Assembly: GCA_016872555.1 (NCBI GenBank)
Contig: VGZO01000030.1
Coordinates: forward strand, 1-51,373
DNA: 51,373 nucleotides
Direction of reading: 5' to 3'
Source of the DNA: Planctomycetota bacterium
GTDB lineage: Bacteria > Planctomycetota > Planctomycetia > Pirellulales > UBA1268
Part shown: positions 1,020 to 50,586 of the stretch, in pieces
Layout of the letters: every line of letters begins with the position of its first letter
How positions within the stretch are numbered: position 1 is the stretch's first letter
Program-made: the position numbers and the translations under genes
The notes under the pieces: model-generated
Database searches by the model: none
What the model was told of the DNA's origin: nothing
The model's input: only the letters and a program-made list of their open reading frames with translations

Positions 1020-4000
1020 GTGAGTGCGAGTCGTTCCGCGGTGGACCGGAGCGTTGCCAGGGTGGTCCTTGCCCTGGCAACTCCGCTGGCGTGCGTGGCG
1101 TTCTCCGCGGCCGTCGCCGCCGCGCCGGCTGCGGTGTCGGCCGAGGATGGGTCGTTTTTCGAGACCAACGTCCGGCCGCTCCTGGTCGCGCACTGTGCCG
1201 AGTGTCATTCGGCCGCCGACGGCAAACCCGAAGCGGCCCTGTCGTTCGACTCGCGGGCCGATTTCCTCTCTGCCGAGGGCATCGCCGTCGCCGGGAAGCC
1301 CGACGACAGCCTGATCATCCAGGCGGTGCGCTACGACGGCGACCTGCAGATGCCCCCGGCCGGGCGGCTGCCGGCCGAGGCGATCGCCACGCTCGAGGAA
1401 TGGGTCCGCCGTGGCCTCCCCTGGCCCGACGACGGCAAGCAGGCGTCGCGCGCCACGTTCGACCTCGCCGCCCGGCGCGCCGAGCACTGGTGCTGGCAGC
1501 CGCCGGTTGCCGTCGATCCGCCAGCCGTGGCCGATCCCGACTGGTGCCGCGGCGAGATCGACCGGTTCATTCTCGCGCGGCTGGAGAAGGCGGGGCTGCG
1601 GCCGGCGCCGGAGGCCGCGCGCGAGACCCTCGTCCGCCGCGCCGCCGAGGTGCTCACCGGCCTGCCCCCCGATCCGGCCGACGTGGCGCGTGTCGGTGCC
1701 GACCCCGATCCGGCGGCGTTCGAGCACTATGTCGACACGCTGCTGGCGTCGCCCCACTTCGGCGAGCGCTTCGCGCGGCACTGGCTCGACGTCGTCCGCT
1801 ACGCCGAGACGCGTGGCCACGAGTTCGACTTCCCGATCCCCAACGCCTGGCGCTACCGCGACTGGGTCGTGCGTGCCTTCAACGCCGATCTGCCGTTCGA
1901 CCGGTTTCTCGTCGAGCAGGTGGCGGGGGATCTGGTCGCCACGCCCCGGCTCGACGCCGCCGGCGCCGACGAATCGACGGTCGGAACGGGATTCTGGTTC
2001 CTCGGCGAGGAGGTCCACTCGCCGGTCGACATCCAGCAGGACGAGGCCGATCGGATCGACAACCGCATCGACACGTTCGGGAAGGCGTTTCTCGGGCTGC
2101 CGCTGGGCTGTGCACGCTGCCACGACCACAAGTTCGACGCGATCTCCGCCGCCGACTATTACGCGCTGGCCGGAACGGTGATGTCGGCGAGCTACCGCCA
2201 GGTGCCGTTCGAGACGCTCCCCGCCAACCGCGCCGTGGCGAATCGCCTCGCTGCCGCCGACGCGGCCGAGCGCCGTGGCCTTCTCCCCGCCGTCGCCGAG
2301 GCGATCGCTTCCCGGCCGCCCGACGAGGTGCTCGCCCGACTCCGCGAGCGCCTCGCCGGCGCCGCGCCGCCGGTGCCCCGCGACGGCGCGGTCGTGATCG
2401 CCGATTACGGCGACGACGCCGCGCCGACCCCCGTGGTCTGCGACGGCACCGCCTGGCGGCGAGTGGTCGCCGGCCAGCCGTTGCCGCGGGCCGCCGCGGC
2501 CGGCCTCGGCATCCTGCCGGTGTCCGTCGCGCGGGCCGACGAGGTCTGGGCGCGGACGACGTCGACCGGCGAGCGCGAGCCGGGTCCGCTCGGTGGGGTC
2601 GACAGGGGCGGCAAGGTGCTGCGGACGCCGAAGGTGTGGCTCACGCAGGGCGTCCTCTGGCACCGCGTCCGCGGCCACGTGCAGATCTTCACCTGCGTCG
2701 ATGGCCACGTGGTGATCATCGGGCCGCTGTACGGCGGCACCGTGACCACCGTCGACACTCAGGGGCAGTGGCGCTGGGTGCGGCAGGACCTGCGCGCCGA
2801 CATCGACTGGTCGCGTGGCCATTTCGTCCACGTCGAATACGCGCCGATCGCCGGCGCGGTGGACGTCGCCGAGGTCGTGGCCGCGCCCGACGAGCCGCGC
2901 CGTGGTGACGCCGTGGCGCTCGAGGTCGAACGGCGCGTGGCGGCGGGCGCCGACGGTGCCACGGCGCTGGTAACGCTCCTCGACGACGCCCTCGCCGCCT
3001 GCCGCAGCGGTGGCCCGATCGGGACGGCGCAGGCCGCGGTGCTCGAGACGGCGCTGGGCGACCCGGCGACCGACTGGACCGGCGGTGCCGCGGCCCGGCT
3101 GGCCGCCGCCGCGGCACGGGCGCGCGCCGAGCGCGCCCGGATCGCGGCCGACGTCCGGCTGGCGAGTGCGACGGCGCCGGCGCTGCTCGACGGCAACGGC
3201 ATCGAGCAGCAGATCCTCCTCAAGGGATCGTCGGCGCGGCGCGGCGACACCGTGCCGCGCCGGTTCCTCGAGGCGATCGACGGCGCCGGGCAGCCGGCCT
3301 GGCCGGCGGCGAGTTCAGGGCGGCGCGAACTGGCCGAACGGCTGGTCGATCCGGCCAATCCGCTCACGGCGCGCGTGGTCGTCAATCGCGTCTGGCACTG
3401 GCTGTTCGGCCGCGGCCTGGTGGCCACCCCCGACAACTTCGGCCGCCTCGGCGAGGCCCCCGCCGATCCGCTCGCCCAGGCGCTCCTCGACCGGCTCGCC
3501 GTGCGCTTTCGCGCCGAGGGCTGGAGCCTCAAGCGGCTGATCCGCGAGGTCGTCGTCAGCAACGCCTGGCGGATGTCGTCGGTCGCGGCTCCCGAGGCGC
3601 TGGCCGTCGATCCTGCCAATCATCTCCTCCACCATGCTCCTCTGCGGCGGCTCGAGGGGGAGGCGGTCCGCGACGCGCTGCTGGCCGTGTCGGGGCGGCT
3701 CGACCGCACGGTCGGCGGACCGCCGGTCGAGGTCCACCTGACGGAGTTCCAGGAGGGGCGCGGGCGCCCGTCCCCCGGGCCGCTCGACGGGGCCGGTCGC
3801 CGCAGCCTGTACACGAAGATCCGCCGCAATTTCCTCCCCCCGTTCCAGCTCGCCTTCGACATGCCGGTGCCGTTCCAGGCGATGGGGCGGCGCAACGTCA
3901 CCAACGTCCCGGCGCAGGCGCTGGTGCTCCTCAACGATCCGTTCGTCCACGAGCAGGCGCGGCTCCTGGCGGCACGCGTGCTGGCGGAGCCGGTCGCCAC

Positions 4001-4205
4001 GCCGCGCGAGCGGATCGCGGTGCTGGTCGGCGCCGTGTTCGCACGCCCGCCGCGCCCCGACGAGATCACCGCCGCCGAGGCGTTTCTCGCCGAGCAGGCA
4101 GCACTCCATGGCGTCGACTTCGCGGCCGATCCGCGCCACGAGGCCAGCTGGGCGGATCTCGCCCACGCGCTTGTCAACGCCAAGGAGTTCATCTACCTGC
4201 CATGA
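1020..4205 (+). CDS. Exported cytochrome c/DUF1549/DUF1553 protein (planctomycete PSCyt1-PSCyt2-PSD1 type)
   Basis: This is a protein of about 1061 residues. A signal peptide covers residues 1-41. It is followed by a cytochrome c-like domain with the haem motif CAECH at 59-63. Next comes DUF1549, with the typical run WLDVVRYAET and a second CxxCH motif in CARCHDHKFDAIS. An inserted region of about 200 residues may be a beta-sandwich. DUF1553 ends the protein (NPLTARVVVNRVWHWLFGRG). The family is abundant in planctomycetes and its reaction is not established; a redox or hydrolytic role on the cell surface is inferred. I chose GTG 1020 because a purine block (GAGGGGTG) lies about 8 bases before it and the signal peptide begins there. 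GTG 1017 is possible, and the open frame continues upstream to 900 with no signal-like sequence. The stop overlaps the next start as ATGA, so the two genes are translationally coupled. Confidence 0.9.
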   Translation: MSASRSAVDRSVARVVLALATPLACVAFSAAVAAAPAAVSAEDGSFFETNVRPLLVAHCAECHSAADGKPEAALSFDSRADFLSAEGIAVAGKPDDSLIIQAVRYDGDLQMPPAGRLPAEAIATLEEWVRRGLPWPDDGKQASRATFDLAARRAEHWCWQPPVAVDPPAVADPDWCRGEIDRFILARLEKAGLRPAPEAARETLVRRAAEVLTGLPPDPADVARVGADPDPAAFEHYVDTLLASPHFGERFARHWLDVVRYAETRGHEFDFPIPNAWRYRDWVVRAFNADLPFDRFLVEQVAGDLVATPRLDAAGADESTVGTGFWFLGEEVHSPVDIQQDEADRIDNRIDTFGKAFLGLPLGCARCHDHKFDAISAADYYALAGTVMSASYRQVPFETLPANRAVANRLAAADAAERRGLLPAVAEAIASRPPDEVLARLRERLAGAAPPVPRDGAVVIADYGDDAAPTPVVCDGTAWRRVVAGQPLPRAAAAGLGILPVSVARADEVWARTTSTGEREPGPLGGVDRGGKVLRTPKVWLTQGVLWHRVRGHVQIFTCVDGHVVIIGPLYGGTVTTVDTQGQWRWVRQDLRADIDWSRGHFVHVEYAPIAGAVDVAEVVAAPDEPRRGDAVALEVERRVAAGADGATALVTLLDDALAACRSGGPIGTAQAAVLETALGDPATDWTGGAAARLAAAAARARAERARIAADVRLASATAPALLDGNGIEQQILLKGSSARRGDTVPRRFLEAIDGAGQPAWPAASSGRRELAERLVDPANPLTARVVVNRVWHWLFGRGLVATPDNFGRLGEAPADPLAQALLDRLAVRFRAEGWSLKRLIREVVVSNAWRMSSVAAPEALAVDPANHLLHHAPLRRLEGEAVRDALLAVSGRLDRTVGGPPVEVHLTEFQEGRGRPSPGPLDGAGRRSLYTKIRRNFLPPFQLAFDMPVPFQAMGRRNVTNVPAQALVLLNDPFVHEQARLLAARVLAEPVATPRERIAVLVGAVFARPPRPDEITAAEAFLAEQAALHGVDFAADPRHEASWADLAHALVNAKEFIYLP

Positions 4206-5644
4206 GCGCGCCCGGCTCCGGTTCGCCGTTTCCCTGCCGCCGCGTCCGCCCCGCGGCGCCGTCGCGGCGCCAGTGGCTGGCGGAGACGGCCTGCGGGTTC
4301 GGTGCCGTGGCGGCGACGGCGCTGCTGGAGGGGGAGCGGGCGGCGGCGGCCGGCGTGACCGCGTGCCACCATCCGGCGCGCGTGCAATCGGTGATCTTCC
4401 TGTACATGGACGGGGGCGTGTCGCAGGTCGATTCGTTCGATCCCAAGCCGCGTCTGGCGCGCGACGCCGGCCGGAACCCGCGCGAGCTGTTCAAGGTCGA
4501 CGCCACGCAGTTCAACAACGTCGGCACGGTGCTGCCGAGCCCGTGGACGTTCCGGGCCCACGGCGAGAGCGGCATCCTCGTCAGCGACCTGTTTCCCTGC
4601 ATCGCCGCCGAGTCCGACCGGCTGGCGGTGATCCGCTCGATGACCAGTGCCTTTCCCGAGCACACCAACGCCAACTACTTCCTCCACACCGGCAGCGGGC
4701 TGCAGGGGCGGCCGAGCATGGGGGCGTGGACGACGTACGGCCTGGGGAGCGAGAACGCCGACCTCCCCGGCTTCATGGTGATCAACGGCGGCCTGATCCC
4801 GCCGGGTGGCCTCGACAACTTCACCGCCGGGTTCCTCCCCGCGACGTTCCAGGGGTCGGTGATCCGGCCGACGGCGGCGGGGCTGGCCAACGTCGCGCCG
4901 CGCGAGGGCAGCCGGGCGCGGCAGGGCGCGAAGGTCGACCTCGCGCGGCGGTTCGACGGTGGGTTCGCCGCGGCCTATCCCGCGGTGCCCGACGCGCTCG
5001 ACAGCGCGATCGCCAACCGCGAGTTGGCGTGGCGGATGCAGACGGAGGTCCCGGGCCTCCTCGATCTCGCCGCCGAGTCGACCGTCACGAAGCGCGCCTA
5101 CGGCCTGGAGAGCGAGTACGAGCCGACGCGAATCTTCGCCAGCGAGTGCCTGCTGGCGCGGCGGATGGTCGAACGCGGCGTCCGGTTCGTGGAGCTGACC
5201 TGCCCGTCGGTCGGGACCGACCGCTGGGACCAGCACTCCAACCTCCGCGAGGGGCACGCGCGCAACGCCCGTGCGGTCGACCAGCCGATCGCCGCCCTCC
5301 TCGCCGACCTCGGGCAGCGCGGGCTGCTTGATTCGACGCTCGTGGTCTGGAGCGGCGAGTTCGGCCGGACGCCGTTCGCGCAAGGGTCCGACGGCCGCGA
5401 CCACAACCCCCAGGCGTTCTCGATGTGGCTGGCGGGCGGGGGCGTCCGGGGGGGCACGGTCGTCGGGGCGACCGACGACTACGGCTACAGGGTGGTCGAC
5501 AAGGCCTGCACGATCCACGACCTCCACGCCACGATGCTCTGGCTGCTGGGCATCGACCACACGCGGCTCACCTACCGCTTCAGCGGCCGCGACATCCGCC
5601 TCACGGACGTGGCGGGAACCGTGATCCGCGAGGCGCTCGCCTGA
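4202..5644 (+). CDS. DUF1501 family protein, Tat-exported
   Basis: This protein of 480 residues has an N-terminal twin-arginine signal (SRRQWLAETACGFG). DUF1501 belongs to the alkaline phosphatase/sulfatase fold. The family hallmarks are present: a start strand with FLYMDGGVSQVDSFDPKP, then WSGEFGRTP and GRDHNP near the C-terminus, which supply likely metal ligands. The substrate is unknown. The gene overlaps the upstream DUF1549/DUF1553 gene by four bases (ATGA), a pairing found throughout planctomycetes, so the two products probably work together outside the cytoplasm. The stop lies 12 bases from the end of the convergent small membrane gene, leaving almost no room for a separate terminator. 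Confidence 0.9.
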   Translation: MSAPGSGSPFPCRRVRPAAPSRRQWLAETACGFGAVAATALLEGERAAAAGVTACHHPARVQSVIFLYMDGGVSQVDSFDPKPRLARDAGRNPRELFKVDATQFNNVGTVLPSPWTFRAHGESGILVSDLFPCIAAESDRLAVIRSMTSAFPEHTNANYFLHTGSGLQGRPSMGAWTTYGLGSENADLPGFMVINGGLIPPGGLDNFTAGFLPATFQGSVIRPTAAGLANVAPREGSRARQGAKVDLARRFDGGFAAAYPAVPDALDSAIANRELAWRMQTEVPGLLDLAAESTVTKRAYGLESEYEPTRIFASECLLARRMVERGVRFVELTCPSVGTDRWDQHSNLREGHARNARAVDQPIAALLADLGQRGLLDSTLVVWSGEFGRTPFAQGSDGRDHNPQAFSMWLAGGGVRGGTVVGATDDYGYRVVDKACTIHDLHATMLWLLGIDHTRLTYRFSGRDIRLTDVAGTVIREALA

Positions 5645-5656
5645 CCCGGCGAATGC

Positions 5657-5944
5657 TCAGTCGCCGCCGCGCATCGACAGGCTGCGGAGCGTGAGCACGG
5701 AGCCGGCCGACATCAGCGCCAGCCCCAGCCAGCGCGGCGGGGCGAGGATCTTCCGCCCCGTCGGTGCTTGCCAGATGCCCGCTGCCGTGGCAGGGGCGGC
5801 CGGCTGGGCCCCGAGCTGAGTGGCGATGAACCGGGTCGACTTCTCGGACAGGGTGAACGACTCGACGACGCGGAACTGGACCCCCGCGAAGAACAGGAGC
5901 AGCCCGGCGAGGAGCAGGTGCTGTCGCTTGACCATCATTCGCAT
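5657..5944 (-). CDS. Small membrane protein of unknown function
   Basis: This protein of 95 residues has two hydrophobic segments, one near the N-terminus (LLLAGLLLFFAGVQF) and one near the C-terminus (WLGLALMSAGSVLTL). They flank about 45 soluble residues that would lie on the far side of the membrane if both ends face the cytoplasm. The start at ATG 5944 is supported by GGAGG seven bases upstream. Two further Met codons follow within the first four residues. I do not recognise the family. It stands alone, reading toward the end of the DUF1501 gene, with a divergent barrel gene on its other side. Confidence 0.7.
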   Translation of the reverse strand: MRMMVKRQHLLLAGLLLFFAGVQFRVVESFTLSEKSTRFIATQLGAQPAAPATAAGIWQAPTGRKILAPPRWLGLALMSAGSVLTLRSLSMRGGD

Positions 5945-6228
5945 CGCACAACCTCCGCGGCCGTCTCGCGCCGCCCACGCGGCCTATTGTGGATCGTGCC
6001 GCGGCGGGGGTGCACTGGAGGCCGGGCGGGGAGTTTCCGCGCGGGGGGATCGTGACGGCCAGCACGGGGGCGAGGCCTCGACGGCCGCATGGACAACCCT
6101 GGAAAGCTGGGCAAGCGGCCGGTGAAGACGACGGATTTTTCTCGTGAATCGATTCTGACGGTGACGATAACTCCACCGCGTATGCCGGTTGTTCGGGTTT
6201 CGACGACTTTTCGCACACGGGGCCGACC

Positions 6229-7674
6229 GTGAAGCACTTCATGCGGACGAGGACGACATTGCCTGGCACGGTGTGGAGCGGCCTGTTGACGGCCGTCTGC
6301 TGTGCCACCACCGGCCTGGCCGCCGACGTCGCGCCTGTCTTCCCAGACTCGCGCGCCGAGAGCGTCCTCGCCAGCCCCGCGGTGCTCGGGGCACCGGCGC
6401 TCGAGCTCGAGGAAGCCCCGGCCGCAGACCCGGGCATGATCCTCGAACCATCGGCCGTGGAAGGGGCTTTGGTGCCCGTTGAGCCGATCCTCGGGGGCGT
6501 GCCGGACCTGCCGCAGCGGATGGCCGACGACATGCGGCTCGACGAGTCGTTCATGGAGCGGATGCCCGACGAGGTCAGCTCCGGGAGTTGGTTCTCGCTC
6601 GGGCAGTGGTACGGCTCCGCCGAGAGCGTGTGGATGGGGCGGGATCGCGAATACCGCCGCGTCGTCGGCCACGACATCCTCGTGCCGGTACCGGCGGGGC
6701 GCAACAAGCAGGGGGTGTTCGTCACCGATTCGATCCCCTACGACCTCTCCCCCGGGGCCCGGGTGACACTCGGTACCTACGTCGGGCGCGACTATCTCAA
6801 TCGCGACCAGTCGCTCGAATTCACCTACTACGGCGGCTTCGCCTTCGTGGTCAACGACACCTGGAACGCGATCGTCCTCAACAGCGGAACCGCGTCGTCG
6901 TTTCTCGTGCCGACGCTCGCGGCCGCCTCGCCGGGTTTCACCGGCGCCCAGGAATACGACCTCAAGACGACCTCGAACTTCAACAGCATGGAGCTGAACT
7001 GGAAAATCCACCGCCGGCTCGGCCGCGACAAGGTGACGATGTCGCCCAACGGCGAATGGACGCGCCATGCCGAGCGCGGATGGCTGCCGAGCCTGATCAT
7101 CGGGCCGCGGGTCGCCAACGTGAACGAGTCGGTCAACTTCATGGGGCGGATGCCCGGGCAGCCGGTGACGAGCTTCGGCGGCGACTACAACATCGAGACG
7201 CAGAATTGGCTCCTTGGCCTCAATCTCGGCGGCGAATTGATCAGCCAGAACGAGTTCTTCTACTGGGGCCTCCGCGGCCGGGCGGCACCGGCGATCTCGT
7301 TCACGTCCAACCAGCAGTCGTTCAACGGGGTCAACACCTACCTGCCGTCGCAGATCCCGATCCGCGACCTCGACGGCAATCAGATCGTGTTCAACGGTGT
7401 CCCGCAGACCGTCACCGTGCCGCAGGGCACGGAGAGCTGGCAGATGGCCGCCAAGCAGACGGCGCCGGGATTCCTCGGCGACCTGACGGTCCTCGCCGGC
7501 TGGAACGTAACCCCCAACTTCGCCGTCCAGTGCAGCTACGACTTCCTCTGGATCGGCGGATTGGCGACCGCGACGCGGCAGTTCAACATGAACAAGATCC
7601 GGCAAAACCCGATCGACGGCGGCGGGCAGATGTTCCTCAACGGCTTCGCGTTCGGCATCAACGGGACATGGTGA
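6229..7674 (+). CDS. Outer-membrane beta-barrel protein, BBP7-like
   Basis: This protein of 481 residues has a signal peptide (about residues 1-32, ending GLAAD). After it comes a short acidic, proline-rich linker. The rest alternates aromatic, small and polar residues in the pattern of barrel strands (LEFTYYGGFAFVVND, QNEFFYWGLRGRAAPAISF). The last residue is Trp, which fits the terminal aromatic used for barrel insertion. The overall plan resembles the BBP7 beta-barrel family of planctomycetes; the family name is a judgement from general pattern rather than a decisive motif. GTG 6229 is used as the start; ATG 6241, four codons on, is an equal alternative. A 284-bp upstream stretch should hold its promoter. 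Confidence 0.65.
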   Translation: MKHFMRTRTTLPGTVWSGLLTAVCCATTGLAADVAPVFPDSRAESVLASPAVLGAPALELEEAPAADPGMILEPSAVEGALVPVEPILGGVPDLPQRMADDMRLDESFMERMPDEVSSGSWFSLGQWYGSAESVWMGRDREYRRVVGHDILVPVPAGRNKQGVFVTDSIPYDLSPGARVTLGTYVGRDYLNRDQSLEFTYYGGFAFVVNDTWNAIVLNSGTASSFLVPTLAAASPGFTGAQEYDLKTTSNFNSMELNWKIHRRLGRDKVTMSPNGEWTRHAERGWLPSLIIGPRVANVNESVNFMGRMPGQPVTSFGGDYNIETQNWLLGLNLGGELISQNEFFYWGLRGRAAPAISFTSNQQSFNGVNTYLPSQIPIRDLDGNQIVFNGVPQTVTVPQGTESWQMAAKQTAPGFLGDLTVLAGWNVTPNFAVQCSYDFLWIGGLATATRQFNMNKIRQNPIDGGGQMFLNGFAFGINGTW

Positions 7675-7829: not shown

Positions 7830-9098
7830 TCAGCCGTCGGCGGCGATCGCCACCGCCACCGCCTGGCCGGTTGAGCAGAGATTGACCACCAGCGCCGTCG
7901 CCGGCCTTCCGGCGAGCGGCCCACCGTGGACGACGCGGACTGGGCACTGCGGATCGGGATGCTCGTAATTGAGCGTCGGCGGCACGAGCCCGTGTTCGAG
8001 CGCGAGCACGCTGGCGGCCAGTTCGACGGTGCCCCCGCCGGCGCCGAGGTGGCCGAACGACGATTTCGGCGCGGTCACGGGTACCGCTCCCAGCTCGGCG
8101 GCGATCGCCGTCGCCTCCGCGCGGTCCATGTCGATCGTGCCGACGCCATGGGCGTTGACGTGGCCGAGCCGTTCGGCGTCGAGGCCGGCAGCGGTCATCG
8201 TCGCGGCGATCGCCTGGCGGAGTGACGACCCCGTGAGGCCGGTGCGGCGCGCGCCCGGCTCGCAGCGCGACGCCGTGGCGAGGATCCGGGCCCGGATCCT
8301 CGCGCCGCGGGCCACCGCATGCGCTCGCGACTCGATGACGAGGACACCGGCCCCTTCGCCGTTGACCAGCCCGTCGCGGTCGCGGTCGAAGGGGCGGCAG
8401 GCGCCGCGGCCGTCGCCGGCGCGGTGGCTCAGCAGGGCGTCGCCGCGGGCGACCAATGCCGTCGGGTGGAGCCGGCAGCCCGTGCCGCCGGCGAGCATCA
8501 CGTCGGCCCAGCCGCGCTGGATCACGCTCGCCGCCTCGCCGACGGCCAGCAGCCCCGACACGTCGCCGAGAACGATCGAATTGTTCGGGCCGCGCGCGTC
8601 GTGGGCGATGGCGATGTGCGACGCGGTCATGTTGGGGAGATGCTTGAGCAGCCAGAGTGGATGGAGCTCCTCGTGGACCGCCTCCGACCAGAGGCTGAAG
8701 TCGAATTGCCGGCCGCGGAGCGAGCGGCGGTAGGCGCCGGCGAGGTCTTCGAGGTCGGCGTAGATCATGTCGCCGCCGAACACCACGCCGAACCGGTCGG
8801 GGTCGCGTGCCGCGCCCACCAGACCGGCGTCGGCCATCGCCAGTTCGGCGGCGGCGAAGCCGAGCTGGATCTCCCGGCTCATCACCTTGAGGCTCTTGCG
8901 CGGCCGGACATGTTCCTTGGGATCGAAGTCGGTGATCTGGCCGCCGAACCGCACCGACAGGGCACTGGCATCGAAGCGGTCGAGCGGCTTGATCCCGCTC
9001 TCGCCGGCCACGAGCCGGCGCCAGAACGTGTCGGTGCCGATGCCCAGTGGGCTGACGACCCCGATCCCGGTGACGACGACCTCGAAGGTAAACCCCAT
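7830..9098 (-). CDS. Ketosynthase-fold protein (FabF-like) lacking the catalytic cysteine
   Basis: This protein of 422 residues matches beta-ketoacyl-ACP synthase II along its whole length: VVVTGIGVVSPLG at the N-terminus, GPNNSIV before the nucleophile elbow, and the two histidine motifs NAHGVGT (His317) and SSFGHLGAGGG (His350). At the nucleophile position, where condensing enzymes have TACASG or a close variant, this protein reads LGDVSG, with Asp179 (codon GAC at 8562-8564) in place of Cys. It therefore cannot form the acyl-thioester. Known non-condensing relatives are chain-length factors and decarboxylating KSQ domains, which carry Gln there. No acyl carrier protein or partner ketosynthase is next to it. 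ATG 9098 follows an AGGG stretch. Fold assignment is firm, activity unknown. Confidence 0.85.
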   Translation of the reverse strand: MGFTFEVVVTGIGVVSPLGIGTDTFWRRLVAGESGIKPLDRFDASALSVRFGGQITDFDPKEHVRPRKSLKVMSREIQLGFAAAELAMADAGLVGAARDPDRFGVVFGGDMIYADLEDLAGAYRRSLRGRQFDFSLWSEAVHEELHPLWLLKHLPNMTASHIAIAHDARGPNNSIVLGDVSGLLAVGEAASVIQRGWADVMLAGGTGCRLHPTALVARGDALLSHRAGDGRGACRPFDRDRDGLVNGEGAGVLVIESRAHAVARGARIRARILATASRCEPGARRTGLTGSSLRQAIAATMTAAGLDAERLGHVNAHGVGTIDMDRAEATAIAAELGAVPVTAPKSSFGHLGAGGGTVELAASVLALEHGLVPPTLNYEHPDPQCPVRVVHGGPLAGRPATALVVNLCSTGQAVAVAIAADG

Positions 9099-9207: not shown

Positions 9208-9780
9208 CTACGGCTGCCGCGGATGGCGTGCCCGCCACGATGAGGGTTCGATGGGGTTGTCGGCAGCCCACAGGCCACGCCGTTCGCGCCGGGCGGCGCT
9301 CTCCGCGGCCACCAGGTCGGGATCGGGCGCGCGGTTGAAGACCCAGGCATACCCCTGGCTGACGAGCCGGGTGTTCACATCGACGCCCTCCACCCGCAAC
9401 CGTCCCAGCACGCGGCCGTGCTGGTCGAGCCCGTGCGACTCGACCGCGATCCGGCGTCCCCCCACCTGGGCGGCGAGGGCATCACGGGCCTCGCGGCCGA
9501 ACGGCTGGTCGTATTCGGGGGCGTCGATATCGACCAGGCGGATCGGTTGATTGCCTCCGTCGGGGGCTTTCGCGGTCACCGTGTCGCCGTCGTTCACCGT
9601 GACCACCAGCCAATCGCCTGCGGTCGCGGCGTCCTGCCTCCGGCAGCGTTCGACCCCGGCGACGATCAGGCTCGCGGCAAGCGCCGCCACGAGGTGCTGC
9701 ACCGGCACGCCGCGCCGCCTCCGCCGCCGTGGGGGTCGGCGCGGGGCAGAGCGATCGGGCGGCTGGTCGCGCGACGCCAT
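9208..9780 (-). CDS. Membrane-anchored thermonuclease-family (SNase-like) nuclease
   Basis: This protein of 190 residues begins with a very basic stretch (RRPPRRRRRRG) and one hydrophobic segment (about 29-43), which should anchor it with the catalytic domain outside the cytoplasm. The staphylococcal nuclease core follows: VNDGDTV, then IRLVDIDAPE with Arg81 and Glu89, then QHGRVLGRL with Arg123. These match the catalytic Arg-Glu-Arg and the calcium-binding Asp residues of the family. The C-terminal NTRLVSQGYAWVF and RRGLWA blocks are also typical. It likely cleaves DNA or RNA extracellularly for nutrient use or defence. It is 109 bp upstream of the ketosynthase-like gene on the same strand and may be cotranscribed. 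Confidence 0.88.
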   Translation of the reverse strand: MASRDQPPDRSAPRRPPRRRRRRGVPVQHLVAALAASLIVAGVERCRRQDAATAGDWLVVTVNDGDTVTAKAPDGGNQPIRLVDIDAPEYDQPFGREARDALAAQVGGRRIAVESHGLDQHGRVLGRLRVEGVDVNTRLVSQGYAWVFNRAPDPDLVAAESAARRERRGLWAADNPIEPSSWRARHPRQP

Positions 9781-10535: not shown

Positions 10536-11951
10536 TCAGGCCAGCCAGTCGTCGATCACCCGGCCGTGGACGTCGGTGAGGCGGAAATCGCGCCCGCTGT
10601 GCCGGTAGGTGAGGCGGGTGTGGTCGAGCCCGAGCAGATGGAGGATGGTCGCCTGGAGGTCGTGGACGTGCACCGGTTTCTCCACCGCCTTGAAGCCGAG
10701 CTCGTCGGTGGCGCCGTGGACCGTTCCACCACGGACCCCGCCACCGGCCATCCAGACGGTGAACCCGTGGTGGTTGTGGTCGCGGCCCGAGGCGACCGTC
10801 ACGTTGCCCGGTGAGGGGAGCTCGATCGTCGGTGTCCGGCCGAACTCGCCCCCCCAGAGGACGACGGTGCTCTCCAGCATCCCCAGACCCACCAGGTCGT
10901 CGAGCAGCGCACCGATCGCCTGATCGCACTCCTTGGCGAGCCTGCGATGGGCCTTCTCGATGTGTTCGTGGCTGTCCCACGGCTGTCCCTCGCCGTGCCA
11001 GACCTGCACGTAGCGGACGCCGCGCTCGACGAGGCGCCGGGCGATGAGCATCTGCCGCCCCTGCACGTCGTCGCCGTAGCGTTCGCGGACATGCTTCGGT
11101 TCGTGGGTGACGTCGAAGGCCTCGCTCGCCTCCGCCTGCATCCGCCAGGCCAGTTCCATCGACGCCAGACGGGCCTCGAGCTGCGGATCGTGGGGGCGGG
11201 CGGCGAGGTGGTCGCGGTCGAGGGTCGCGGTGAGGTCGAGTTGGCGGCGCTGGGTGGGGCGGTCGAGCACCGGGTGGCGGACGTGCTCGACGAGCTCCTC
11301 GACCGTCTTCTTCCGAGTGTCGACGTAGGTGCCCTGGTAGGCCCCGGGGAGGAAGGCACTCCGCCAGTTCTCGGTGCCCTTGATCGGATAGCCGCCGGGG
11401 CACATGGCGACGAATCCGGGAAGGTTCTGGTTCTCGGTTCCCAGTCCGTAGGTCACCCAGGCGCCGGCCGCGGGGCGCACCAGCCGGCCGTCGCCACAGT
11501 TCATCAGCATCAGCGACGGCTCGTGGTTGGGCACGTCGGCGTGCATCGACCGCACCACGAGGAGCCGGTCGGCGTGGCGCGCCACCGACGGAAAGAGATC
11601 ACTGATCTCCAGCCCGCTGTCGCCGTGGCGGGCGAAGGCGAACGGCGAGGGGAGGGCGGCCCCGGTGCGCCGCTCCGTGGGCAGCCGACCGGGCACCTCC
11701 TGCCCCGCGTACTTCTCGAGGGCTGTCTTCCGATCGAAGGTATCGAGGTGGCTCGGGCCACCGTTGGCGAACAGATGGATCACCGCCCGCGCCCGCGCGG
11801 CGAAATGCGGGGGCCGCGGTGCCAGTGAGCGCGGAGCCGCCGGTCCGCCGCCGTCGCCGGCCGCCGTCCCGGTGAGCAAGTCGCTCGCCCCCAGCCAGCC
11901 GATCCCCAGGCCGGTGCGGACGAGGGCATCACGTCGCGTGAGGGCATCCAT
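10536..11951 (-). CDS. DUF1501 family protein, Tat-exported
   Basis: This is a 471-residue protein starting MDALTRRDALVRTGLG, a twin-arginine signal. DUF1501 landmarks are FANGGPSHLDTFDRK near the N-terminus and WGGEFGRTP and GRDHNHHGF near the C-terminus, as expected for a metal-dependent member of the alkaline phosphatase/sulfatase fold. Its specific substrate is unknown. ATG 11951 was chosen because the open frame upstream of it has no signal-like sequence and runs into the preceding gene. The preceding DUF1549/DUF1553 gene ends 35 bp upstream on the same strand, so the two form an operon with the same order as the pair at 1020-5644. Confidence 0.9.
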   Translation of the reverse strand: MDALTRRDALVRTGLGIGWLGASDLLTGTAAGDGGGPAAPRSLAPRPPHFAARARAVIHLFANGGPSHLDTFDRKTALEKYAGQEVPGRLPTERRTGAALPSPFAFARHGDSGLEISDLFPSVARHADRLLVVRSMHADVPNHEPSLMLMNCGDGRLVRPAAGAWVTYGLGTENQNLPGFVAMCPGGYPIKGTENWRSAFLPGAYQGTYVDTRKKTVEELVEHVRHPVLDRPTQRRQLDLTATLDRDHLAARPHDPQLEARLASMELAWRMQAEASEAFDVTHEPKHVRERYGDDVQGRQMLIARRLVERGVRYVQVWHGEGQPWDSHEHIEKAHRRLAKECDQAIGALLDDLVGLGMLESTVVLWGGEFGRTPTIELPSPGNVTVASGRDHNHHGFTVWMAGGGVRGGTVHGATDELGFKAVEKPVHVHDLQATILHLLGLDHTRLTYRHSGRDFRLTDVHGRVIDDWLA

Positions 11952-11986
11952 GGGATCGTTCCCAAATTCGGGGCACCGTCGGCGGA

Positions 11987-14848
11987 TCAATCGACGAACT
12001 GGAACTCCGCCGTCGCGAGCAGGGCTTGGGCGAGCCGGCACCAGCAGTCGAAATCGGTGGGGCCGGCCGCATCCGCTTCCCGATCACGCTCCAGCCAGGC
12101 GCGGGCGGTGATCCGCTCGCCGGCAGTGGGACCGCGGGACAGCACCGCCCGCCACAGTCGCGCGAGCCGCTCGTCGTCGGCCGCCCCGCTGCCCGCCTCG
12201 CGCGCCGATCGCCCGGCGACCCCCCGGGCGGCCTCCACCACCAGCGGCGCGTTGAGCACCGTGAGCGACTGCTGCGGCACGCTCGTCCGCGGCCGCACGT
12301 GGACGGCGGTGTCGGGATTGGCCAGGTCGAAGATCCGGAGGGTGCCGGGCACGTCTTGGCGGTCGAGCCGCGTGTAGAGGCTGCGCCGGTCGGCAGAATC
12401 CTTCGTCAGCGGATCGCTCCCCGGTCCACCCCGGCGGTTCGTCGACAGGGTGCCGGCCGCGCTGAGGAGCGAGTCGCGGAACGCCTCCCAATCGAGACGG
12501 CGGCGGTTGGCGCGGGCGAGCAGCCGGTTGTCGGGGTCGATCGCCGCGGCAGCGGCGGCGGTGGCGCTCGACTGCCGCCAGGCGCGGCTGGTGACGATCT
12601 CGCGGTGCAGCCAGCGGAGGCTCCAGTGCCCCTCCTCGATGAAGCGGCGCGCGAGATCGTCGAGCAGCTCGGGGTGGCTCGGGGCCTCGCCGCGGAGGCC
12701 CAGATCGCCGGGGGTCGGCACGAGGCCGCTGCCGACATGATGCGTCCAGACCCAATTGACGATCACCCGTGCGGTGAGGGGATTGTCGGCGGCGACGATC
12801 GCCTTGGCGAGCTCCAGCCGGCCGCTCGTCTGCGTGGGTAGCTCGACACCGCCGAGGATCTCCGGGAGGCGCCGGGGCACGCGGTCGCCGGGCCGGCCGG
12901 GATTGCCACGGATGAGGATCTGGCTGTCGTGGGGTTGATCGGCGTCGACGAGGACCATCGCCTTGGGGGGTCCGCCGGGAGCCTCGGCCTCGTGCCGGAC
13001 GATGTCCTGCCGGCGCTTGCGCGCTTCGTTCTGCTCGGCGACGGTCGCGACCCGCATCGCCTCCGCCTGCGCCAGCACCAGTGGTGTGCCCTCCGCCCCG
13101 AGCAGCGCCCGGACCTCCGCCATCCCGTCGGGATCGGTCCCCGGGGCAGGGCCGCCGGCCATCTCCGGTGCCGCGCGCAGGATCACCCGCGCATAGGCCT
13201 CGGCCAGCGCGCGGAGCGAGTCGGGCGCGGACGAGCGCAGTTCGGCGAGCACGAGCGGATTGACGACCGTGGCGGGCGGGGCCTCGCCCCAGACGGCCAG
13301 CAGGTCGCGCACCGCGGCCCCCAGTTCGGCGTCGGGGCGACCCTCGAGGGCGACCCACGGCCCGAGGACGGGATGATTCGCATCATGGCGGTTGACGAGC
13401 GCCGCGAGCCGGTCGATGAGGAACTGCTGCAGGTCGTAGCCATCGGCCGTCCGCGGGGGGCGGTTGTCGGCGTTGCGCGGCGCCGGGCGGGCGGTTTCCA
13501 TGAAGTAGTCGGCCGCGTGGGCCACCGCCTCGCGGGAGCCGCGTGCCTGGACCGCCTGCTCGTGGGCAGGGATCGCCGCCCGGAGCTCGGCCAACCGGGC
13601 GGCGAACGCCTCGGCCTCGGGGCCGGGGGGTGCCGGGCCGATCACCGGCAGGGCGTCGGGGATCCGCGAACTGGCGAACACGCCGTGGAGGGCGTAGTAG
13701 TCGGCCGTCCCGATCGGCTCGTACTTGTGGTCGTGGCAGCGGGCGCAGGCGACCGTGAGCCCCATCAGGCCGCGCGTCACCAGATCGATCCGGTCGTCGA
13801 TGATGTCGTGGGTGTTGCCGAGGAAGGTCCGCCCCACGGTGAGGAACCCGAGGGCGGCGAGGTCGGCGGAATCGACCGGCGGTTCGATCCGGTCCGCCGC
13901 CAGCTGGAGGGTGACGAAGCGGTCGTAGGGGAGATCCGCGGCGAGCGCCCGCACGACCCAGTCGCGGTAGGTCCAGGCGAAGGGATAGCGCGGATCCTGG
14001 TTCGCGAACGCGTAGCCCATCGTGTCGGCATAGCGGGCGAGATCGAGCCACTTGCGGGCCCAGTGTTCGGCGTGCTCGGGCGTGGCGAGCAAACGGTCGA
14101 CGAGCGCCCGGTAGGCCTCCTCGGTCGGCGCCGAGACGAACGCATCGGCCTCGTCGGCCGGTGGCGGCAGACCGACGAGGTCAAACCACAGCCGGCGGTG
14201 GAGTTCGCGTGGTGCCGCCTCCGCGGACGGCGACAGACCGGCGGCGGAGATCGCGGCGAGAAGGAAGCGATCGATCGGGGAAGTCCACGTCGATCCAGCG
14301 GGAGCGGTGGCTGGTTCTGGGGGGGCATGACGCACGGGGGGGCGGTAGCCCCAGTGCCCACCGCGGGCGGCGGCGATCCTGTCGGCCAGGGGAAGGCTCG
14401 CCAGGTCGATCGCGCCACCGGAGTCGGGCCACGGTGCACCGGCTGCGATCCATGATTCGAGCACCGCGACTTCCTCGGCCGGAAGCGGCTCGTCGGGGGG
14501 CATCGCCGCCAGGTCGCCGGTCCGCCTGATCGCGGCCACCAGCCGGCTGGCGGCGACGTCACCCGGAACGACGACAGGCCCGCCGTCGCCCCCCTTGTCG
14601 AGCGCCTGGCGGCTGTCGAGCCGCAGTCCCGCCTCGGCGACGCCCGGGCCGTGGCACCGCTGGCAGCGCGCCACCAGCACCGGCCGGACGCGCTGCTCGA
14701 ACTGCGTCTCGGCGGCTCGGGCGTCGGCGGGGGGAGGCTCGGCCGCACGCGCGCTTGCCGCCCAGGCCACGAGCATGGCCGCCAGCAGGATCGCCGCCGC
14801 AGCCGGGCGTGACCGAACGCGGCGGTAGGAAAAAACCAGCTTCACCAT
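11987..14848 (-). CDS. Exported cytochrome c/DUF1549/DUF1553 protein
   Basis: This protein of about 953 residues has a signal peptide (ILLAAMLVAWAASARA), a cytochrome c-like domain with CQRCHGPG, DUF1549 with WARKWLDLARYADTMG and CARCHDHKYEPIGTADYY, and a C-terminal DUF1553 (NPLTARVIVNWVWTHH). Two CxxCH motifs suggest covalent haem in the first domain at least. Unlike the protein at 1020-4205 it has a long helical insert between the two DUF regions rather than a predicted sandwich. The start at ATG 14848 begins the signal peptide; the frame is open to 15034 but that part is arginine- and proline-rich. A divergent DUF1501 gene starts 211 bp away. It heads an operon with the DUF1501 gene downstream. 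Confidence 0.9.
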   Translation of the reverse strand: MVKLVFSYRRVRSRPAAAAILLAAMLVAWAASARAAEPPPADARAAETQFEQRVRPVLVARCQRCHGPGVAEAGLRLDSRQALDKGGDGGPVVVPGDVAASRLVAAIRRTGDLAAMPPDEPLPAEEVAVLESWIAAGAPWPDSGGAIDLASLPLADRIAAARGGHWGYRPPVRHAPPEPATAPAGSTWTSPIDRFLLAAISAAGLSPSAEAAPRELHRRLWFDLVGLPPPADEADAFVSAPTEEAYRALVDRLLATPEHAEHWARKWLDLARYADTMGYAFANQDPRYPFAWTYRDWVVRALAADLPYDRFVTLQLAADRIEPPVDSADLAALGFLTVGRTFLGNTHDIIDDRIDLVTRGLMGLTVACARCHDHKYEPIGTADYYALHGVFASSRIPDALPVIGPAPPGPEAEAFAARLAELRAAIPAHEQAVQARGSREAVAHAADYFMETARPAPRNADNRPPRTADGYDLQQFLIDRLAALVNRHDANHPVLGPWVALEGRPDAELGAAVRDLLAVWGEAPPATVVNPLVLAELRSSAPDSLRALAEAYARVILRAAPEMAGGPAPGTDPDGMAEVRALLGAEGTPLVLAQAEAMRVATVAEQNEARKRRQDIVRHEAEAPGGPPKAMVLVDADQPHDSQILIRGNPGRPGDRVPRRLPEILGGVELPTQTSGRLELAKAIVAADNPLTARVIVNWVWTHHVGSGLVPTPGDLGLRGEAPSHPELLDDLARRFIEEGHWSLRWLHREIVTSRAWRQSSATAAAAAAIDPDNRLLARANRRRLDWEAFRDSLLSAAGTLSTNRRGGPGSDPLTKDSADRRSLYTRLDRQDVPGTLRIFDLANPDTAVHVRPRTSVPQQSLTVLNAPLVVEAARGVAGRSAREAGSGAADDERLARLWRAVLSRGPTAGERITARAWLERDREADAAGPTDFDCWCRLAQALLATAEFQFVD

Positions 14849-48322: not shown

Positions 48323-49096
48323 TCAGGCCGACGGTCCTGCCCTGCGTTGCCGTCTCCGGGCATCCTTGAGTCGATAGCTCTCGCCTTTCGCCTCGAGGAT
48401 GTGGCAGCGGTGTGTGAGGCGGTCGAGGGCAGCCCCTGTGAGCCGCTCGCTGCCGAGCACCTCGGTCCACTGCTCGAAGGGGAGATTCGTGGTCACGATC
48501 AGGCTCTGACGCTCGTAGGCCGTCGACAGCACGTCGAAGAGCAGCTCGGCCCCGGCCTTACCGGTGGGCACGTAGCCGAGTTCGTCGAGGATCACGAGGT
48601 CGAGTTGCTTGATCTGCTTGCGGAGGCGGATGAGTGACTTCTCCTCTCTGGCCTCCAGCAGCAGCGTGATCAGCTCGGTGACCCCGAAGAATCGCACCTT
48701 CCGCCCCTGCCCGCAGGCCGCCAGGCCGAGGGCGATCGCCAGATGCGTCTTGCCCACGCCGCTGGAGCCGATGAGGAGGACGTTCTCGCGCTCGTCGATG
48801 TACTGCCCCTTGGCGAGTTCGAGCACGAGCGGTTTGTTGATCGAGGGCTGCTGATCGAAATCAAACTCGTCGAGCGTCTTCGTTTGCGGGAAGCGGGCCG
48901 CTTTGAGCCGCCGTTCGGCGGCTCGCCGCTCCCGCTCGATCAGCTCCAGTTCGCACAGCCGCTGGAGGTAGGCGATGTGATCGAGGTTCTCGATCGCCGC
49001 CTGCGAGGCGACCTTCTCGCACTCCTCACACATCGTCGGCAGCTTGAGCGCCTTGAGATGATGCTTCACGAGCACCGCGCACTTCGTCTTGCTCAT
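48323..49096 (-). CDS. istB: IS21 helper ATPase IstB
   Basis: This protein of 257 residues is a DnaA/DnaC-like AAA+ ATPase. Walker A is GSSGVGKTH, Walker B VILDELGYV, and sensor 1 is VTTNLPFEQW. The N-terminal helical domain with ECEKVASQAA fits IstB. It assists target choice and strand transfer by IstA. ATG 49096 overlaps the IstA stop (ATGA). Its full length and intact motifs suggest it works. Confidence 0.95.
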   Translation of the reverse strand: MSKTKCAVLVKHHLKALKLPTMCEECEKVASQAAIENLDHIAYLQRLCELELIERERRAAERRLKAARFPQTKTLDEFDFDQQPSINKPLVLELAKGQYIDERENVLLIGSSGVGKTHLAIALGLAACGQGRKVRFFGVTELITLLLEAREEKSLIRLRKQIKQLDLVILDELGYVPTGKAGAELLFDVLSTAYERQSLIVTTNLPFEQWTEVLGSERLTGAALDRLTHRCHILEAKGESYRLKDARRRQRRAGPSA

Positions 49097-50586
49097 ACGG
49101 ACACCTCCGTCTCCAGCAGCGACGCGTACGCGCTGATGTCGGTCGGTGGGACGTGCACGAGCTTCAGGTGGGGACGGCTGTCGAGGCAGAAGAGCGCGAC
49201 CGGAGACTCACGGCGGTGCTCCAGGATGACGCGGATCGTGTCAGCATCGGCGACGCCCTGTCCGAGCGCGTAGTCGAGCGCCGTGGCGAGTTCATCGAGC
49301 GTCGCCTTCTCCAAGAGCAAGAGCACCCGGATGAACTCGCGTGTCCCGAGTCCGTCAGGGGTGCGCTCCATCCGACGGCGGAGCACATCGAAGCAGTCTG
49401 GGAGCTGCCAGTCGGCAAGCGGACGGGCGTAGTCGAAGGCACCGGGCTTGCGCTCCAGGAGCGCCAGATAGTGGATCGGATCGAAGAAAAAGCGTTCCCG
49501 GCCCCAGTGGCGGCGATGCCTCGCGATCAGACGATCCTCGAAGATCATCTTCACGTCATCGACCGTCGCCACCACCGTGATCGTCCGGTGGGCGTACTTC
49601 ACCGGCACGCTGTAGCTGTTGGTGTCGAAGCGCACCAACGACAGCGAATTGGCCCCGGTCTGCGTGATCCGGCGCGCCTCACACTCCTGGGCCGGAAGCG
49701 GCAGCAAGGCACTCCGCTCCTCCAAGAGCCTCTCTCCCTTCGTGCCATCCTTGCCCCGCAGTTGCCGGGCAAGATCCGCCCGGCAGCGCTGCTCGAGCGT
49801 CTCGTTGAGTTCCGCGAGCGACTCGACGCTCGGCACCGGTACGAGGAAGTTCGCCCGACCGAAGTCGACGAGGCATTCGACGTGCCCTTTTTCGTTCGCC
49901 CGCCGCACCAGGCAAAACTGCGTCTCGAACAGACAGTGGCTCTGGAGCCGCTGAAACTCCCTCGTCACCTGCCGCTCGCGGCTGCCGGTGATCTTCGCCA
50001 CCGCGATCTTGCTGTTGTCGTAGCGGATCTTTCGCGGCACGCCACCGATGAAGCGGAAGGCCCGATTATGCCCCTCGAGGAAAGCCTCGGTGCACTCCCG
50101 CGGAAACGCCTGAATGTAGAGCGCGTCCGAATACGGCAGCGTCATCACGAACAGCGCTACCTGATGCCGCTCACCGGCGAGGTCGACATAGGCGAAGCCG
50201 AAGTCGACCTGGGCCTCGCCCGGTGGATGCGAGAGCGGCACGAAGACTTCCTTCCTGGAGTCCTTCCACTCCCGGACTGCCGCCCTCACCATTGTGACGC
50301 CGCCGGTGTAGCCGCGTTCGGCCCTCAGTCGGTCGAAGATCCGCTGCGCCGTATGGTGCTGCTTCTTGGGCGCCTCCCGGTCCTGCTCCAGCACCTCGTG
50401 GATCCACGCCAGGTGCGGCCCCAGGATCGGCTTCTCACGCTTCGTCCGACGGCGGTACCCGGGCGGCTCGGCGTGTGCGAGCATCTTCGCAAGCGTCCGC
50501 CAGTTGATGCCGTATTCCTGGCAGGCCGCCCGCTTCGACAATTCGCCGGTCAGCACCCGGCGCCGGACCTCGGTCCACATCTCCAT
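49093..50586 (-). CDS. istA: IS21 transposase IstA
   Basis: From ATG 50586 the protein has 497 residues; the open frame begins at 50661 with little support. An N-terminal helix-turn-helix (LSKRAACQEYGINWRTLAKML) precedes the DDE core: QVDFGFAYVD (first Asp), KIRYDNSKIAV (second Asp) and RRANEKGHVE (Glu). The C-terminal beta-barrel region (FDTNSYSVPVKYAHRTI) is normal. The catalytic triad is complete and no stop interrupts it. Together with IstB it should move the element. Confidence 0.94.
   Translation of the reverse strand: MEMWTEVRRRVLTGELSKRAACQEYGINWRTLAKMLAHAEPPGYRRRTKREKPILGPHLAWIHEVLEQDREAPKKQHHTAQRIFDRLRAERGYTGGVTMVRAAVREWKDSRKEVFVPLSHPPGEAQVDFGFAYVDLAGERHQVALFVMTLPYSDALYIQAFPRECTEAFLEGHNRAFRFIGGVPRKIRYDNSKIAVAKITGSRERQVTREFQRLQSHCLFETQFCLVRRANEKGHVECLVDFGRANFLVPVPSVESLAELNETLEQRCRADLARQLRGKDGTKGERLLEERSALLPLPAQECEARRITQTGANSLSLVRFDTNSYSVPVKYAHRTITVVATVDDVKMIFEDRLIARHRRHWGRERFFFDPIHYLALLERKPGAFDYARPLADWQLPDCFDVLRRRMERTPDGLGTREFIRVLLLLEKATLDELATALDYALGQGVADADTIRVILEHRRESPVALFCLDSRPHLKLVHVPPTDISAYASLLETEVSV

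Follow-up and report, generated by a model that had tools for sequence, protein, structure and literature searches.

A planctomycete ketosynthase homologue with aspartate in place of the catalytic cysteine: a candidate orphaned CLF-like subunit

A ketosynthase homologue that carries aspartate at the position of the catalytic cysteine is encoded in a 51,373-nucleotide stretch of a Pirellulales genome (Planctomycetota; assembly GCA_016872555.1, contig VGZO01000030.1, positions 1 to 51,373, hereafter the window). On balance, we lean towards the view that this protein is an orphaned CLF-like KS-beta whose ancestor was the leading gene of an ancient ketosynthase tandem, KS1-KS2. The substitution itself has been known since 2009 from Rhodopirellula baltica (Rattray et al. 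2009, Biol Direct 4:8; PMC2649909); what is added here, from comparison of genomes, is a phylum-wide family, its probable origin from the tandem pair and a candidate partner. Pirellulales and Planctomycetales typically retain one or two proteins of ketosynthase fold that are unable to use the standard Cys mechanism, and one of those adjoins core fatty-acid genes in several genomes, a situation unexplained since it was noticed in 2009. The gene order yields a concrete hypothesis, in which CLF-like partner subunits may extend beyond specialised polyketide clusters, have a part in making membrane lipids, and be encoded away from their partners.

An acidic residue in a complete FabF fold

The reading frame, strand and coordinates of the gene were all confirmed, and the features on which the argument depends are as follows, in window coordinates.

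7830..9098, minus strand: group A acidic ketosynthase-like protein (KS1 / KS-beta-like), 422 aa; from the ORF, Pfam, AF2, Foldseek and VIA
8865..8897, minus strand: residues 68-78, KSLKVMSREIQ, with the clade-wide motif K68, K71, M73, R75, Q78; from conservation
8628..8660, minus strand: residues 147-157, PLWLLKHLPNM, the KS1 hallmark; from the motif by group and the segment length
8562..8564, minus strand: Asp179 codon GAC at the catalytic Cys position; from the codon read and alignments
8148..8150, minus strand: His317, equivalent of FabF His303; from alignments and 43/43 same-family sequences
8064..8066, minus strand: Lys345, conserved equivalent of FabF Lys335; from alignment
8049..8051, minus strand: His350, equivalent of FabF His340, Asn in most other clade members; from alignment
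7866..7886, minus strand: residues 405-411, degenerate gating loop VNLCSTG, against NSFGFGG in FabF; from alignments

The central claim of the original prediction, Asp in place of the catalytic Cys, was borne out: GAC is read at 8564-8562 on the minus strand, and in alignments to solved FabF structures Asp179 shares the column of E. coli FabF C163, its motif being VLGDVSGLLAVGEA where FabF has ATACxSG. A Cys elsewhere in the nucleophile elbow had been named beforehand as a finding that would overturn the claim, and the same alignments place none there. Both catalytic His columns are filled, by His317 (FabF H303) and His350 (FabF H340), and Lys345 is kept. It had also been stated that all other FabF landmarks are retained; this is correct for the two His and the fold, but the GFGG gate is gone together with its Phe (NLCSTGQ stands there instead), the HGTxT motif has Val for its first Thr, and the equivalog score is low. 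The fold is indeed intact, as predicted: both ketoacyl-synthase domains are recognised by Pfam (N domain PF00109, 3.7e-40; C domain PF02801, 1.7e-20), and the AF2 model (pLDDT 93, pTM 0.93) is a complete FabF fold, placed with FabF by both Foldseek and VIA.

Fold comparison does not tell FabF and CLF apart, since the VIA Z is 63.1 for the best FabF and 60.9 for the actinorhodin CLF (1tqy_B). By search score, the top PDB matches are FabF proteins, the best solved structure being FabF 1j3n (218.7 bits, 1.5e-63), and the actinorhodin CLF ranks lower with 141.5 bits. Compared with the fabF equivalog TIGR03150, the protein has the fold and the two catalytic His but lacks the nucleophilic Cys and the GFGG gate, and its 281.7 bits lie below the cut-off of 493.75; it falls well below the AmcF cut-off too. 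It differs from actinobacterial type II PKS CLFs in having Asp rather than Gln and in that its best PDB matches are not CLFs, and from KSQ domains likewise in having Asp179 instead of Gln, while the His pair that it would share with them is present in the window's family and not in most of the clade. As in a KS-beta/CLF, the nucleophilic Cys is absent; the adjacent Cys ketosynthase expected of one is missing from the window and present in clade relatives. All marks of the acidic KS1 clade are found in it: the acid at 179, the PLWLLKxLPNM and KxxKxMxR[DE]xQ motifs, and the position in the tree.

Conservation and phylogeny of the acidic ketosynthases

Homologues were gathered at four levels, namely the same family, order, class and phylum. 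Asp179 occurs in 43/43 distinct same-family sequences, accompanied by His317 in 43/43 and His350 in 42/43, and Asp is found in a 99%-identical sister genome as well. A sequencing error or a single mutation is thereby ruled out. A decaying, pseudogene-like remnant, to which the loss of the nucleophile and the gating loop could point, is hardly credible and was rejected, because Asp is invariant in the family, the frame is open and free of internal stops in nearly all sampled genomes of the order, and dN/dS is 0.06-0.19 in five pairs, indicating purifying selection.

Beyond the window's family, either Asp or Glu occupies site 179, and Asn frequently takes the place of the second His. Position 350 is Asn in 31/35 operonic sequences of one order and in 20/22 sequences of a second group, B; counting replacements by any residue, the second His is lost in 35/35 and 22/22 of these, respectively. 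Several members of the clade have Phe, Ser, Thr or Gly in place of the first His. The Cys ketosynthases that were tabulated have Cys-His-His in all 96 cases.

In a maximum-likelihood tree of 83 sequences, computed with the three catalytic columns excluded, all Cys ketosynthases lie on one side of a branch with 100/100 support and the acidic ones on the other. Group A, which includes the window protein, is supported by 98/93, group B by 99/94 and the operonic group by 100/98, and A and B are joined with support of only 95/47; as far as the tree resolves, A and B would be co-orthologous to operonic KS1. Character changes, counted as label changes on the tree, number one for Cys versus acid, at least 14 for D versus E, at least 6 for His350 and at least 9 for His317. 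According to the tree, the replacement of Cys by Asp or Glu happened once, in a planctomycete clade, and the acid is the stable feature of that clade, which the His pair is not. An acid that is held while the catalytic triad drifts is as expected of a non-condensing subunit. The original prediction held that an Asp conserved in a clade would speak for a real new subfamily, and the tabulation of residue 179 in planctomycete homologues supports such a subfamily, with the acid having arisen once.

Tandem ketosynthase pairs in other lineages

Other lineages encode the acidic ketosynthase (KS1) immediately ahead of a Cys-His-His ketosynthase (KS2), and the full cluster, with its parts identified by Pfam, has the order FabZ-(FabG)-ACP-FabZ-KS1-KS2. 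KS1 is directly followed by KS2 in L079, L082, L083, L088, L092 and L218; the contig of L092 stops within KS2, and the other five loci have FabZ, FabG and/or ACP genes upstream of the pair and, mostly, an alpha/beta hydrolase and a GH3 homologue downstream. In the order to which G343 belongs, a KS1-type match is present in 45/45 genomes, with KS2 on the same strand less than 200 bp away in at least 39/45. Ten longer loci (L276-L285) show the cluster around the pair, and the pair is found in 17 further loci from other families of the phylum. All these neighbour counts are approximate, as a simple gene caller misses or mis-starts some genes. In a sample of 292 genomes of the phylum, KS2 was found in 76, a KS1-type match in 57 and both in 56, with thresholds that are arbitrary and with relatedness of the genomes ignored; KS2 without an adjacent KS1 occurs in L374 and L377.

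The KS2 partner in the pair loci is always Cys-His-His. Of the 17 further KS1 proteins and another located at a contig end (L378), 14 have Glu at residue 179, two Asp, one Gln (L366) and one Asn (L375). The L366 protein has Gly and Glu at the His positions and the L375 protein Asn and His, showing that the site is free to vary after the Cys has been lost. Furthermore, in four genomes of a more distant family (f34), KS1 retains Cys and already has PLWLLKxLPNM, and it precedes KS2 in L214, L215 and L217. This looks like the ancestral arrangement, in which two active ketosynthases stood in tandem and the first later lost its nucleophile.

Compared with FabF, KS1 and KS2 share about 13 inserted residues (a segment of 40 versus 27), after which KS1 reads PLWLLKxLPNM and KS2 ExEQEPNM. 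The KS1 motif is equally conserved in A and in operonic KS1, with P, L, N and M at 99-100% and W at 95%, which suggests that selection still acts on the same dimer surface in A. Its Trp149 aligns with FabF Phe133, a residue that we take to border the acyl pocket where the two subunits meet. The K68/K71/M73/R75/Q78 motif presumably lies where FabF binds ACP and could thus serve in docking.

A displaced cluster and two dispersed copies

In the Pirellulales and Planctomycetales genomes examined, the cluster reads FabZ-(FabG)-ACP-FabZ-KS2, with KS1 absent. That of the window's genome is located on another contig, C29 (locus L117; 36,000 + 3.5 to 6.9 kb), and its KS1 slot is empty; the genes are listed below in coordinates of L117.

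3531-4133: FabZ, by Pfam
4421-4813: ACP, by Pfam
5004-5504: second FabZ, by Pfam
5657-6931: KS2 (Cys-His-His)

KS1 has thus been lost from the cluster in the very lineage that carries A and B. It had been argued that the lack of an acyl carrier protein next door speaks against a simple pair. This argument fails, because an ACP of the cognate type, two dehydratases and a Cys ketosynthase sit on C29 around an empty KS1 slot. KS2, the ACP and the two FabZ proteins of C29 are thereby the candidate partners. Besides its displaced cluster, one Planctomycetaceae genome (G313, contig C170, L320:7459-9984) carries another KS2, immediately preceded by an Asp KS1.

Genomes of Pirellulales and Planctomycetales usually have both A, to which the window gene belongs, and B, with Glu. 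In the window's genome (G000), B (contig C1:105811-107091; L116:10791-12113) carries Glu in place of Cys and Asn at 350, and lies downstream of rpmF-fabD-fabG-acpP-fabF and upstream of nusA-infB, a placement in the fab ... nusA-infB region that recurs in several other genomes. The window locus of A is away from any fatty-acid gene, and A is orphaned in every Pirellulales and Planctomycetales genome examined, with no conserved operon partner found. KS2 does not require A, since five genomes (G023, G043, G050, G273 and G324) lack A and retain KS2 and B. A also diverges faster than KS2: in G040, for example, the two are 45% and 73% identical, respectively, to the proteins of the window's genome.

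Both types of copy have been seen before. Rattray et al. described two FabF paralogues of R. baltica without Cys, RB3714 with Asp163 and both His kept, and RB4527 with Glu163 and Asn as the second His, and assigned no function to them (PMC2649909). Compared by their reported residues, these match groups A and B residue by residue, in the same phylum and with the same substitutions; the KS1-KS2 gene pairs, the two-copy pattern and the displaced cluster are described here and not in that paper. Searches of the literature for Asp/Glu ketosynthases by phrase, and for RB3714 and RB4527 by locus tag, found nothing beyond it.

Comparison with known ketosynthase pairs

The KS1-KS2 arrangement resembles KS-alpha/KS-beta of type II PKS, such as those of actinorhodin (1tqy) and ishigamide (6kxd, 6kxf), in that adjacent genes encode a Cys-His-His and a Cys-less protein of the same fold. 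It differs in that the CLF has Gln where KS1 has an acidic residue, that the degenerate gene is downstream in PKS and upstream in KS1-KS2, that A and B of planctomycetes are unlinked from KS2, and that the window protein is nearer to FabF by sequence. The origin of KS1-KS2 seems to lie in or close to the planctomycetes. In AmcF-AmcG (KS-CYF) of cispentacin biosynthesis, a heterodimer has been shown biochemically (PMC10698177); a FabF-like Cys subunit likewise goes with a degenerate partner there, although AmcG has no recognisable ketosynthase motifs whereas KS1 has the complete fold. ApeO-ApeC of aryl polyene clusters is also a KS-CLF heterodimer, encoded along with ACPs, two dehydratases and a ketoreductase (PMC8358021), the same kinds of parts as in the planctomycete cluster. 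ApeC has a single thiolase domain and roughly half the size (PMC8358021), in contrast to the full-length KS1, and no aryl-polyene-specific genes were recognised in the planctomycete cluster. KSQ loading domains share with the window's family the ketosynthase fold, the replaced Cys and both His; they have Gln and lie within type I modules, unlike the acidic clade, which has Asp here and is mostly without the second His.

A proposed CLF-like subunit and alternative explanations

Three options had been offered for the protein, a decarboxylase-type enzyme, a chain-length partner or a new enzyme, of which the phylum-wide gene order favours the chain-length partner. The CLF-like reading, to which we give somewhat better than even standing, draws on the conserved fold, the nucleophile lost once, the drifting His, the invariant Cys partner next door elsewhere and the conserved interface motif. 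Modelled on the known KS-CLF pairs (actinorhodin, ishigamide, aryl polyene and the cispentacin AmcF-AmcG), the mechanism would be as follows. The tandem pair would have arisen in a dedicated type II cluster, FabZ, FabG, ACP, FabZ, KS1, KS2, from which the KS1 function has since been split off, with copy A in the window, copy B on contig C1 and KS2 left on C29. KS1 would pair with a Cys ketosynthase, namely KS2 or, for B, perhaps FabF, so that A is predicted to form a heterodimer. The Cys partner would hold the acyl chain and condense it with malonyl-ACP, and KS1 would load no chain, as its nucleophile site is taken by a carboxylate and its gate is missing. Trp149 of KS1 may enter the acyl pocket of the partner and help to set chain length or specificity, and the basic patch of KS1 would be retained for ACP. 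A could then still serve KS2 at a distance, and the product may be a specialised acyl chain. Counted against the CLF-like reading are the position of A, which is not beside KS2 in the window's genome, the loci L374 and L377, where KS2 has no KS1 next to it, and the strict Asp-His-His of the window's family, which a purely structural subunit does not need; moreover, the faster evolution of A and its dispensability in five KS2 genomes argue against a simple obligate pair.

These same observations feed the alternatives. The orphan position, the persistence of KS2 and B in genomes without A and the faster divergence of A would suit a non-catalytic, acyl-ACP-binding or regulatory homodimer, released from the KS1 role after A/B duplication and relocation, as would the clade-wide basic motif K68/K71/R75 at the ACP site; we regard this as doubtful, because A and operonic KS1 conserve PLWLLKxLPNM equally well. 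The His pair, nearly invariant in the window's family, and the intact fold with Lys345 are compatible with a gene that stands alone and encodes a homodimeric KSQ-like decarboxylase, in which His317 and His350 turn malonyl-ACP into an acetyl-ACP primer for fatty acid synthesis. Such an activity is unlikely: decarboxylation by FabB/FabF needs both His, according to literature cited in PMC2649909, the second His is lost throughout the operonic sequences of one order and group B, the first is replaced in several members, the site carries Asp and not Gln, and the genome has its own FabH, so that a primer bypass is not forced. The decarboxylase option of the original prediction is weakened accordingly, in that most relatives have Asn at the second His, even though the window's own family keeps both. 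A bypass for a genome devoid of FabH was rejected outright, FabH being present above its cut-off, and so was kinship with the malonyl-ACP decarboxylase MadA/MadB, since the MadA decarboxylase domain and MadB have the hot-dog fold and are not ketosynthases.

The strict Asp-His-His of the window's family could also point to a new enzyme that uses Asp179 and the two His without a thioester intermediate, for example in hydrolysis, acyl transfer or an aldol-type reaction on acyl-ACP, and a desaturase gene next to A in other families (see below) hints at lipid chemistry. We hold it very improbable, as across the clade the site holds, besides Asp, also Glu and in rare cases Ser, Gln or Asn, the His positions vary too, and A has no conserved operon partner; that a stand-alone Asp179-His-His enzyme acting on acyl- or malonyl-ACP, again with no thioester intermediate, has been kept across the whole family seems a distinctly long shot.

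Gene neighbourhood and lipid-related genes

Upstream of A lies the following gene, judged to stand outside the system.

9208..9780, minus strand: SNase-type nuclease gene (PF00565, 2.2e-19)

This nuclease neighbours A in 25 loci examined, nearly all of the same family. A gene for a secreted protein at 6271-7674 on the plus strand, convergent with the ketosynthase gene and without a Pfam match, adjoins A in about 50 loci, most of them in that family. A functional link of A with either was rejected, as the arrangement hardly extends beyond the family.

A fatty acid desaturase gene (PF00487) stands next to A in divergent orientation at 14 loci from other Pirellulales families (e.g., L147:7160-8287), an adjacency that is absent in the window's family. 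Alpha/beta hydrolase and GH3 homologues follow KS1-KS2 at L079:10772-13540, and similarly in L083, L088, L279 and L283. Such GH3 proteins, distantly related to the ornithine lipid synthetase OlsH, might link the acyl product to an amino acid. The GH3 and hydrolase genes are reminiscent of OlsH and OlsI, known from planctomycete ornithine lipids (PMC12493201); the GH3 homologues by the KS pair score 84-110 bits, against an OlsH cut-off of 620 bits, and no GH3 was found in the window's genome, so that a GH3/ornithine-lipid role in this organism was rejected. The desaturase and the GH3/hydrolase neighbours each hint at a possible membrane lipid chemistry.

Elsewhere in the window, two adjacent genes at 48323-50586 on the minus strand resemble, by eye, an IS21-type transposase pair (IstB-like and IstA-like). 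Several pairs of large secreted proteins, among them those at 1062-5644 and 10536-14848, resemble, again by eye, the cytochrome-type/DUF1501 pairs of planctomycetes.
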